Of a DNA stretch of 41,498 nucleotides, positions 32,685-35,713 are shown piece by piece. The position numbers and the translations under genes were made by a program. Location: assembly GCA_026984045.1 (NCBI GenBank), contig JALSSV010000077.1, forward strand, positions 1-41,498, given 5' to 3'. Each line of letters opens with the position of its first letter. The first letter of the stretch is position 1. The stretch is from Chromatiales bacterium. GTDB lineage: Bacteria; Pseudomonadota; Gammaproteobacteria; UBA6429; Thiohalophilaceae. The notes beneath the pieces are model-generated. The model was not told where the DNA came from. It saw only the letters and a list, made by a program, of their open reading frames with translations, and ran no database searches.

Positions 32685-34664
32685 CTACGCGCTTCGTTCC
32701 AGCAGCAGATTTCCCCAGGCATCCATCTCGCCCGTCCAGCCCGGCGCCAGCCAGGTGGTGGAGACGGTTTCGGTGACGAGGGCCGGCCCGGTGATGACCT
32801 GACCGGGAGCCAGCGCGTCGCGCGGCCAGACGGGCACCGGCACGTCGTGCCCGGCCAGGCTGACGTGATCGGCCGGTGTGCCCGGCGCCGCGGCGGGGCG
32901 CGGAGGCAGGGCCGGCGGGGCCTGACGGCTGCGCAGGGAGACGCGCAGGTTGACCAGTTCCACCGGCCGCGCCAGGCGGTGGCCATAGCGGGCCGCGTGC
33001 AGGGTGTGGAAGGCCGCTTCACTGCCGGCGGGATCCGTCCAGGGCACGTTGAGCGCCCACGACTGGCCCTGGTAGCGCAGATCCAGGCTGCGCGAGACCG
33101 CGATTTCCCCTTCCGTCACGCCCTCGGCCTGCAGCTCGGCCCGGCCGGCCGCTTCCAGTTCGGCGAACAATCCGGCCAGTTCCGCGGCGTCCAGGCTCGC
33201 CAGGGGAGCAATGCGGCTGCGGGAGCGTTCCCGGGCCCGGGGCGCGACCAGCATGCCGAGCGCCGAGAGCACGCCGGCATGGATGGGCACCATGGCGCGG
33301 CGCATGCCCAGCGCCTCGGCCAGGGCGCAGACGTGCAGGCCACCCGCCCCGCCGAAGGAGACCAGGGTGTGATCCCGCGGATCGATGCCCCGCTGCACCG
33401 AGATCACCCGCAGGGCATGGGCCATGTGTTCGTTGGCGATGCGCACGATGCCCTCGGCCACGGCCAGTGGTGGCATGTCCAGCTCCGCGGCCAGCGCCGC
33501 CATGGCCTCGCGGGCCGCCGCCGCGTCCAGCCGCATGCCGCCGCCGAGGAAGGCCTCGGGGCGCAGGCGGCCCAGCAGCAGGTTGGCGTCGGTGACCGTG
33601 GGGCGGCGGCCGCCGCGGCCGTAACAGGCCGGGCCCGGATCGGCGCCGGCCGACTCGGGGCCCACCTGCAGGAGGCCGCCGGCGTCCACCCAGGCCAGTG
33701 AGCCGCCGCCGGCGCCGATGGTGTGCATGTCGACCATCGGCACCGCCACCGGCCAGCCGGCGATTTGCCCCTCGGTGGTCAGGCGGATCTCGCCTTCGAT
33801 GAGAGCCACGTCGGTGGAGGTGCCGCCCATGTCGAAGGTGAGCAGCCGCTCGCGGCCGGTGAGTTGGCCCAGGAAGCGGGCCGCGGCCAGGCCTCCGGCC
33901 GGCCCCGAGAGCAGCATGCGCACCGCCTGGCGGCCGGCCTGGGCGGCGTCGATGGTGCCGCCCGAGCTTTGCATCACGGACAGGCCGGCTTCCGGCGGCA
34001 GACCCGCCTTCAGGCGCCGCAGATAACCGTCCACCAGCGGCCCCACGTAGGCATTGAGCCAGGTGGCCATGCCCCGTTCGTATTCCCGGAATTCGGGGAG
34101 CACTTCCGAGGAACGGCAGACGAACAGCGCGTCGCCCAGGGCGGCGGCAAGAGCCTGCTCGATGCGCCGCTCGAAGCGGTCGTCCTGCCAGGCATAGAGC
34201 AGGTTGATGGCCACCGCCTCGGGCCGGCGCCGGCGCACGGTCGCAACCAGCGCCTCGAGATCCGCCTCGGTCAGGTCTTCCAGGATCTCGCCGGCCGGAC
34301 CAAGTCGGCCACCGGTCTCCAGGCAGTCGTCGCGGGGCACCGGCGGGGCGAGCGGTTGCGGCTGCAGTTCATACAGCTCGCGGCGGGTCTGGCGGCCGAT
34401 GGTGAGCATGTCCCGCAGGCCGCGATTGGTGACGAACACGCATCTGACGCCCTTGCCCTCGAGCACCGCGTTGGTGGCCACGGTGGAGCCGTGCACGATG
34501 CGCGGGGCCTCGCGGCTCAGGCCCAGATCGGCCAGCCCCTGCAGGATGGCCTGCTCCGGGGCGGCCGGGGTGGAAAGCACCTTGTGGGTGACGAGCGCAC
34601 CGTCCCGCCACAGGACGAAGTCGGTGAACGTGCCACCGGTGTCGATGCCAAGCCACGGCGTCAT
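32685..34664 (-). CDS. Hydantoinase/oxoprolinase family protein (HyuA-like)
   Basis: 659 residues. Begins with the actin-like ATPase motif [13 protein letters not shown], then [32 protein letters not shown] and the glycine-rich [12 protein letters not shown]. Family members use ATP to open cyclic amides such as hydantoins or 5-oxoproline, normally together with a HyuB subunit. No HyuB gene is in the window, so it may work with a distant partner or have another role. Its start overlaps the end of the globin-cyclase gene by 4 bp (ATGA), so they are translationally coupled. Confidence 0.9.
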
Positions 34665-35713
34665 GCGGCAACGACCCGATCGCGTCCCGCCAGCTTGGCG
34701 GCGTAGAGGGCCGCGTCGGCCCGTTCCAGCAGGGCCTCGGGCGTGTCGCCGTCTTCCAGGGCCGCCACGCCGAGGCTCACGGTCAGCGGAATGCGGTGTG
34801 CGTCCACCTGCACCGGCGCCGAGCCGATCCGCTCGCGCACCCGTTCGGCCACCTGGCGCCCGGTCTCGAGGGAGCTGGCCGGCAGCACCAGCAGGAACTC
34901 CTCGCCCCCGTAGCGGCCGACGATGTCACAGCCACGCACCGCCGCCTCCAGGCGCCGGCCCACTTCCTTGAGCACCTCGTCGCCCACCAGGTGCCCGAGT
35001 TCGTCGTTGACGCGCTTGAAATGATCGAGATCAGCCATGGCCACGGTCAACGGCTGACCGCGGCGGCAGGCCATGGCGATCTCGTTGGCCAGTACCGACT
35101 CCAGATGCCGCCGGCTGGCCACTTCGGTGAGCGAATCCACCCGCACCTGCTGCGACAGTTCCTCCTTCTCGTCGGCCAGCGTGTGCACCGAGCGGATCAG
35201 ATCCTGGATCTGCAATTGATGATAGGTTTCGATGGCCAAACTCATGTCGAGCTTGATGATGCGGCCAAGAAACCGAATCAGATCCAGTTTTTGCGGTGAC
35301 TCGCGGAACCCTTCGTGCGGAAAGTGGTCGATGATCAGGTCTTCCAGGAGGCGATAGGCCGCCAGGTAAAGACTCAGGGGCAGGCCGATGTGAGCATGGG
35401 CCATGCCTGCCCGCAGGCGGTTCTCGAAGTAGTCGGCGGTGTCGAAACCGATGCCCAGGGTATCGAGATAGTCGGCATGGGTGACCTTCAACTGCGGCAC
35501 CTTGCGCCCGCCGTCGAGAAACAGCGCGGTTTCGGGCCGGGTGACCAGATAGTCGTAGAAGGCATCGATGATGCGCGCACCATGGGGTGTGATAACCTGC
35601 GCATGCAGTAGCCCGGCCAGATCGTGATCGCCCGCCTGGAAGCCGAACAGTTCGATCCGCCGGCGACGTCCGATTTCATCGAACCCGTACTTGTCACACA
35701 ATGAATAATTCAT
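34661..35713 (-). CDS. Globin-coupled diguanylate cyclase
   Basis: 350 residues, no TM helix. N-terminal globin-sensor (protoglobin) domain about 1-165: the proximal-His region is GMAHAHIGLPLSLYLAAYRL, similar to HAxIGL of HemAT/DosC proteins. A helical linker (about 170-185) leads to GGDEF with RYGGEEF (about 268) and RGCD five residues before it, an intact I-site. Heme-bound O2 probably controls c-di-GMP synthesis. I chose ATG 35713; a longer frame to 35782 would overlap the ABC gene start on the other strand. It is 67 bp from that divergent gene. Confidence 0.85.
   Translation of the reverse strand: MNYSLCDKYGFDEIGRRRRIELFGFQAGDHDLAGLLHAQVITPHGARIIDAFYDYLVTRPETALFLDGGRKVPQLKVTHADYLDTLGIGFDTADYFENRLRAGMAHAHIGLPLSLYLAAYRLLEDLIIDHFPHEGFRESPQKLDLIRFLGRIIKLDMSLAIETYHQLQIQDLIRSVHTLADEKEELSQQVRVDSLTEVASRRHLESVLANEIAMACRRGQPLTVAMADLDHFKRVNDELGHLVGDEVLKEVGRRLEAAVRGCDIVGRYGGEEFLLVLPASSLETGRQVAERVRERIGSAPVQVDAHRIPLTVSLGVAALEDGDTPEALLERADAALYAAKLAGRDRVVAA

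Follow-up and report, generated by a model that had tools for sequence, protein, structure and literature searches.

Among the described enzymes against which the genes considered here can be set are a caprolactamase and a group of globin-coupled cyclases. For the caprolactamase, the available portion of PMC8453981 proposes that the lactam is activated in the A subunit, with a tunnel and with ring opening at a metal in the B subunit, and names an Asp-His-Asp-His set as the ligands of that metal. Among globin-coupled cyclases, the accessible part of PMC5549716 describes the roles of a His and a Tyr as heme ligands in EcGReg. A third point of reference is 5-oxoproline itself, which, in the available text of PMC13274462, arises in all cells; loss of pxpABC in C. 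glutamicum left growth on glucose unimpaired, so the 5-oxoproline step need not be essential. The DNA analyzed was a stretch of 41,498 nucleotides from a Chromatiales bacterium of the gammaproteobacterial family Thiohalophilaceae (assembly GCA_026984045.1, contig JALSSV010000077.1, positions 1 to 41,498), referred to here as the window, in which a gene for a globin-coupled diguanylate cyclase overlaps a hyuA gene. An original prediction from the sequence had described a gas-sensing enzyme of cyclic di-guanosine monophosphate (c-di-GMP) synthesis that is coupled to an orphan HyuA. The reading favored here, with moderate confidence, is that HyuA and a HyuB encoded elsewhere form a split lactamase with unlinked genes, probably a 5-oxoprolinase, and that a cyclase of the gas-sensor type is co-expressed with HyuA.

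Both genes of the pair lie on the minus strand, the cyclase (350 amino acids; Pfam Protoglobin and GGDEF) at 34661..35713 and the 659-residue HyuA-type ATP-dependent subunit, assigned from Pfam, motifs and the solved relatives 7hk5 and 6yra, at 32685..34664. The cyclase frame ends GTC GTT GCC GCA TGA and that of HyuA begins ATG ACG CCG, with the four shared bases (ATGA, 34661..34664, minus strand) forming the stop of the one and the start of the other, exactly as first described. The cyclase start was placed at 35713, and relatives align from residues 1-15 onward; an alternative start of the same open frame, at 35782, was set aside because it would run into the start of a divergent ATP-binding cassette (ABC) ATPase gene at 35781.

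The cyclase combines an N-terminal protoglobin domain and a GGDEF domain in a single chain. The protoglobin domain (residues 19-166; 35216..35659, minus strand; Pfam, 82.9 bits) carries a distal Tyr53 and a proximal His106. They were located by aligning it to 5ohe, a globin chain from a globin-coupled histidine kinase, in which we take the matching Tyr and His to be heme ligands. The GGDEF domain (residues 192-346; 34676..35140, minus strand; Pfam, 154.7 bits) has GGEEF at 269 and an RxxD I-site, RGCD, at residues 260-263. Conservation of these features was high in the 30 cyclases adjacent to hyuA, the window's own included: His106 was kept in 30 and Tyr53 in 28, while the I-site and GG[DE]EF were kept in all 30, one of them with GGDEF. 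Judged by domains and motifs, the enzyme is an intact one of the gas-sensor type, as the original prediction had it, and its probable signal is O2 or a different ligand of heme. It has no middle domain like that of EcGReg and BpeGReg, the Pfam stretches stopping at 166 and resuming at 192; to our knowledge, a middle domain does not define all globin-coupled sensors, and its absence lowers the likeness to those two proteins only. As a separate observation, a search of the window's genome (G000) with the cyclase matched 31 places, counting the cyclase gene itself, of which 29 begin in the linker or the GGDEF part, seemingly a large c-di-GMP set for a 3 Mb genome. One 707-residue open frame (contig C93, 3679-4602) shows 33% identity to cyclase residues 36-343 and is possibly a second globin-coupled cyclase.

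HyuA scored above the curated cut-offs of the Pfam families Hydant_A_N, Hydantoinase_A and Hydant_A_C (PF05378, PF01968, PF19278). It contains the phosphate motifs DTGGTFTD (at 8) and DMGGT (278) and the adenosine motif GADPGP (340), following the definitions given for CapA in the portion of PMC8453981 available. These families and ATP motifs mark it as a hydantoinase/oxoprolinase subunit, in agreement with the HyuA-like, cyclic-amide identity proposed for it at the outset. The window contains no Hydantoinase_B match. Elsewhere in the genome (2.98 Mb, 104 contigs, 99% complete), where the Hydantoinase_A match in the window is the sole one, there is likewise a sole Hydantoinase_B match, a lone hyuB on contig C94 (L003:9513-11054). 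Its product (P0003, 513 amino acids) keeps the complete metal tetrad, Asp38, His94, Asp97 and His120, in alignment with the B chain of 6yra, an entry of the Protein Data Bank (PDB) that was equated with the Pseudomonas jessenii caprolactamase CapAB from matching chain lengths.

The hyuB gene has surroundings of its own. In the window's genome it adjoins superoxide dismutase and asparagine synthase genes (Pfam names), and over 15 loci, comprising this one and those of 14 genomes picked by hand, most for their long contigs, an asparagine synthase relative was found in 13, a glutaredoxin-like gene in 14, an acetylornithine-aminotransferase-like gene in 13, and superoxide dismutase in six, the glutaredoxin-like and aminotransferase-like names coming from a reading of the sequences by eye. 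A tblastn search (1e-4) of 80 hyuA loci found no hyuB in the flanking DNA, which extended at least 7.9 kb on both sides in 38 cases and 5 kb in 45, and the same query recovered HyuB in the HyuB loci used for tree building. The 80 hyuA loci, from named genomes, rank highest among 435 confirmed relatives, and the set therefore leans to near kin. Seven genomes consisting of a single contig (G055, G069, G078, G107, G143, G145 and G152) have the unfused hyuA and hyuB at separate places, with at least 0.3 Mb between them even if the contig is circular, and the two genes share a contig at a distance of about 36 kb in G166 and about 42 kb in G199. Only in the distant one-contig genome G128 (L181; 46% identity) were hyuA and hyuB of this type seen side by side.

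The relationship between the two genes was explored further in 276 genomes drawn evenly from the Gammaproteobacteria, the class of the window's host. HyuA of this type, defined by an author-set threshold of at least 480 bits to the window's protein (P0001; the next full-length match scored 458 bits), was present in 87, and an unfused HyuB of this type, in some cases as a fragment, in 85. A fused HyuA-HyuB protein (open frame of at least 1100 amino acids) was counted in at least 54 genomes, a lower bound since weak matches fall below the cut-off, with G132, G090 and G292 left uncounted; a PxpA-family match was found in 31. HyuA and HyuB occurred together in 84 of the 87 HyuA genomes (26.8 expected; Fisher 3.7e-66), HyuA and the fused protein in none (17.0 expected; Fisher 1.2e-10), and HyuA and PxpA in one, G226 (9.8 expected; Fisher 1.2e-4), all three values being overstated, as related genomes were treated as independent. 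Three genomes had HyuA without HyuB (G037, G119 and G173), and one of 480 contigs (G302) had HyuB without HyuA. The original prediction was thus right that no HyuB is in sight within the window but wrong in calling HyuA an orphan, a status ruled out by the single HyuB on contig C94 and by this near-constant joint presence. In each of four families (f68, f80, f93 and f112), one genome carried the split form and another the fused form, a distribution that suggests that one has replaced the other.

The explanation we prefer for these observations is as follows. Together, HyuA and HyuB would make up a lactam hydrolase of two subunits. HyuA would use ATP to activate the lactam, and the metal-binding HyuB, supplied from a separate locus, would carry out the ring opening at its metal. 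The most likely reaction of the pair would be conversion of 5-oxoproline to glutamate, in repair or salvage, in bacteria that mostly lack both PxpA and a fused 5-oxoprolinase-like protein. 5-Oxoproline is put forward as the likeliest substrate because it is formed in all cells, because the PxpA and PxpC families are missing from the genome, and because the split and fused forms never meet. Searches of the window's genome with PF02626 and PF03746, which we take to represent PxpC and PxpA, respectively, found neither, with E. coli and B. subtilis as positive controls. The cyclase and hyuA would form one transcription unit, with a gas-responsive diguanylate cyclase as its first product; lying between an ABC operon and hyuA, the cyclase gene would give hyuA its leader, and HyuA would be made along with the sensor, the overlap making its production follow the cyclase message. 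What links the two would then be shared expression rather than chemistry.

Not all of the evidence points to 5-oxoproline, and several results weigh against it, beginning with the overstated Fisher values. The fused protein and PxpA coincided in three of 54 genomes, against 6.1 expected (p 0.23), which shows no significant exclusion between these two forms; 108 of the 276 genomes had none of the three forms; and G226 holds the split pair as well as PxpA, for all of which reasons the argument from exclusion is indirect. The Pxp families searched were PxpA, in the window's genome and the larger sample, and PxpC, in the window's genome. No 5-oxoprolinase model was among the NCBIfam matches of HyuA or HyuB, and the solved relatives of HyuA are a mixed group, namely N-methylhydantoinase, a 5-oxoprolinase (the caprolactamase entry 6yra), and acetophenone and acetone carboxylases.

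These results bring into view a different substrate, with HyuA and HyuB acting as a hydantoinase, a caprolactamase-like enzyme or some other cyclic-amide enzyme. We regard this as unlikely, although of the alternatives it survives best. In its favor, the best-scoring curated NCBIfam models were those of caprolactamase, CapA for HyuA (450.4 bits) and CapB for HyuB (212.6 bits), neither of which reached the equivalog cut-off of 1000 bits (NF050156, NF050157), and the closest solved relative of HyuA carries the name N-methylhydantoinase. The trees gave a divided answer. In the HyuB tree, the split type, G128 and the fused proteins fell into one group (support of 98 in the Shimodaira-Hasegawa-like approximate likelihood ratio test, SH-aLRT), with seven unfused hydantoinase- or caprolactamase-like HyuB proteins outside it; in the HyuA tree, the fused proteins formed a group of their own (100), and the split HyuA stood on the unfused side, a placement that also counts against a 5-oxoprolinase. 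Therefore, of the two subunits, only the metal one points to kinship with the fused 5-oxoprolinase-like enzymes, in trees made by a quick method from 26 (HyuA) and 27 (HyuB) rows, with long branches in both. What argues against a rare xenobiotic substrate is that the pair is usually present in one copy per genome, excludes the fused form and is rarely accompanied by PxpA, a pattern that suits a housekeeping role better.

The pairing of the cyclase with hyuA, which is the curious point of the locus, its component parts being of known kinds, was found to be recurrent. The cyclase was present in 28 of the 276 genomes and directly upstream of hyuA in 16 of these, from 11 families (G000, G070, G077, G095, G107, G119, G143, G145, G152, G167, G197, G203, G208, G213, G220 and G247). 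Of the others, G265 is cut by a contig end, and G301 has one open frame between the two genes; in G124, the cyclase lay 3 kb from hyuA with an open frame on the opposite strand in between. The intervening frame of G301 (L221:6804-7529) specifies, as read by eye, a membrane protein resembling a TauE/SafE exporter. Among the 80 hyuA loci, a globin cyclase was directly upstream in 14, and in a set of 58 genomes (the window's and its relatives) the cyclase was present in 16 at E 1e-45 or better, eight of them with it beside hyuA (G000, G001, G009, G012, G014, G023, G030 and G035). A pairing confined to this strain is thereby ruled out, and the conservation that was to be checked extends to 11 families. 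Spacing was tight as well: with start codons picked by rule, 15 of 30 non-identical adjacent pairs (from 37 rows, the window's included) overlapped and 25 lay within 30 nt, the remaining five being 44-94 nt apart. Distances between HyuA proteins correlated with those between the cyclases (29 pairs, r 0.76; 0 of 999 permutations), as expected of joint inheritance but also of shared species history.

Whether this recurrence reflects a functional tie is another matter, and a neighborhood accident, in which an old order of ABC operon, cyclase and hyuA has been kept or lost by lineage with no tie between the products, is rather doubtful in our estimation but accounts for several results that weigh against the tie we propose. 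Of 65 hyuA loci with at least 3.5 kb of upstream DNA, 13 had the cyclase and 52 did not. The hyuA gene of Thiohalophilus thiocyanatoxydans (L048) likewise has no cyclase next to it. In the other eight of the 16 relatives, the cyclase was located elsewhere, and three genomes of the larger sample (G058, G189 and G308) had it in the absence of any match to HyuA or HyuB (E 1e-60), the cyclase of G308 still adjoining the ABC operon. No obligate link is therefore shown, and the case for the proposed co-expression of the cyclase and HyuA is drawn from gene spacing. The open frames between cyclase and hyuA in G124 and G301 also suit an accident, as does the order of branching in a tree of 82 HyuA rows, 15 of them with the cyclase, where the first branches are mostly of rows with the cyclase and suggest an old gene order with later losses, the root of this tree resting on one very long branch. 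Against an accident stand the overlap of half of the 30 pairs and the situation in G077 and G203, where the cyclase and hyuA are found together beside a mutM-like gene (read by eye), away from the ABC operon.

A single origin of the pairing, as one clade, was considered and is unsupported: the label 'adjacent' required seven changes on the HyuA tree, compared with 14.0 in shuffles, and eight on a cyclase tree of 59 rows (52 of them different), at least five of these changes being forced by starred branches. The deep branches of the cyclase tree are weak, and the pairing may reflect one old gain followed by losses or several gains.

Stronger forms of the tie that we propose were also weighed. 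It is improbable that a c-di-GMP sensor responding to O2 or nitric oxide (NO) was added to the operon of a single subunit of a split 5-oxoprolinase, with the gas governing how much enzyme is supplied, how it assembles or how active it is, and with the subunits unlinked because they are differently regulated; if true, this would tie biofilm-type signaling to glutathione/glutamate repair. Direct control, in which a local c-di-GMP pool or contact of the cyclase with HyuA would let O2 or NO tune lactam hydrolysis or HyuA-HyuB assembly, is very improbable, since the repeated tight coupling, the heme ligands, GG[DE]EF and I-site kept in nearly all adjacent copies, and the room that separately encoded subunits leave for assembly control are set against a HyuA with no c-di-GMP-binding domain among its Pfam or NCBIfam matches, many hyuA loci without an adjacent cyclase, and cyclases that persist in genomes without HyuA.

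Other genes of the region fall outside the pair. A divergent gap of 67 bp (35714..35780) separates the cyclase from the ABC operon, all on the plus strand, which comprises an ABC transporter ATPase (35781..36728; Pfam), an ABC-2 type permease (36725..37483), an ABC_transp_aux protein (37461..38927) and a DUF4340 protein (38924..39823). The divergent ABC ATPase is the most constant neighbor of hyuA, being present at 61 of the 65 loci with sufficient upstream DNA, and we know of no link between such an ABC transporter and a lactamase. A sigma-70-like promoter, TTGTCA-16-TATAAT, is predicted by consensus match at 35691-35718 on the plus strand (one found, 0.1 expected), overlapping the edge of the gap. 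Convergent with hyuA, and outside its unit, are genes for a bacteriohemerythrin (32211..32654, plus strand) and an EAL-HDOD protein (30960..32153, plus strand), found within 1.5 kb of hyuA at three and 22 of 68 loci, respectively.

With the false orphan removed, HyuA and HyuB acquire a testable identity as the two subunits of one enzyme, encoded at distant loci with recurring neighbors of their own, in those sampled gammaproteobacteria from which the fused form is absent and, in all but one of 87, PxpA as well. The recurring pair, in turn, is one in which an effect of a gas-sensing c-di-GMP enzyme on a metabolic enzyme specified by the same message could be looked for. Searches of open-licence PubMed Central (PMC) papers turned up no publication on the pairing of the cyclase with hyuA, nor on a HyuA/HyuB enzyme that is split and unlinked.

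Comparison with described systems revealed a pattern of likeness and difference for both products. EcGReg/DosC and BpeGReg, as far as the available part of PMC5549716 describes them, have in common with the window's cyclase a globin with distal Tyr and proximal His, and GG[DE]EF with an RxxD I-site five residues upstream. According to the same portion of that source, residues 155 and 297 of BpeGReg flank a middle domain, whereas about 25 residues lead from globin to GGDEF in the window's cyclase. CapAB of P. jessenii resembles HyuA and HyuB in that its A and B subunits are separate proteins that carry the same ATP motifs and the same Asp-His-Asp-His metal motif, but capB and capA were cloned as neighbors, as stated in the available text of PMC8453981, while hyuA and hyuB of the window's genome are on separate contigs, and HyuA attains less than half, and HyuB about a fifth, of the CapAB cut-offs. 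The prokaryotic 5-oxoprolinase PxpABC would carry out the same reaction as that proposed for HyuA and HyuB, and its families PF03746 and PF02626 were not found in the window's genome. The eukaryotic-type ATP-dependent 5-oxoprolinase (OPLAH/OXP1), represented in bacteria by fused HyuA-HyuB proteins of about 1200 amino acids that are presumably 5-oxoprolinases, has the same two domains as HyuA plus HyuB, with ATP and metal motifs in common, and was in none of the 276 genomes found alongside the split pair. It is one protein, in contrast to two proteins from unlinked loci here, of which, in the quick trees, the HyuA side stands outside the fused group and the HyuB side groups with the fused bacterial proteins.

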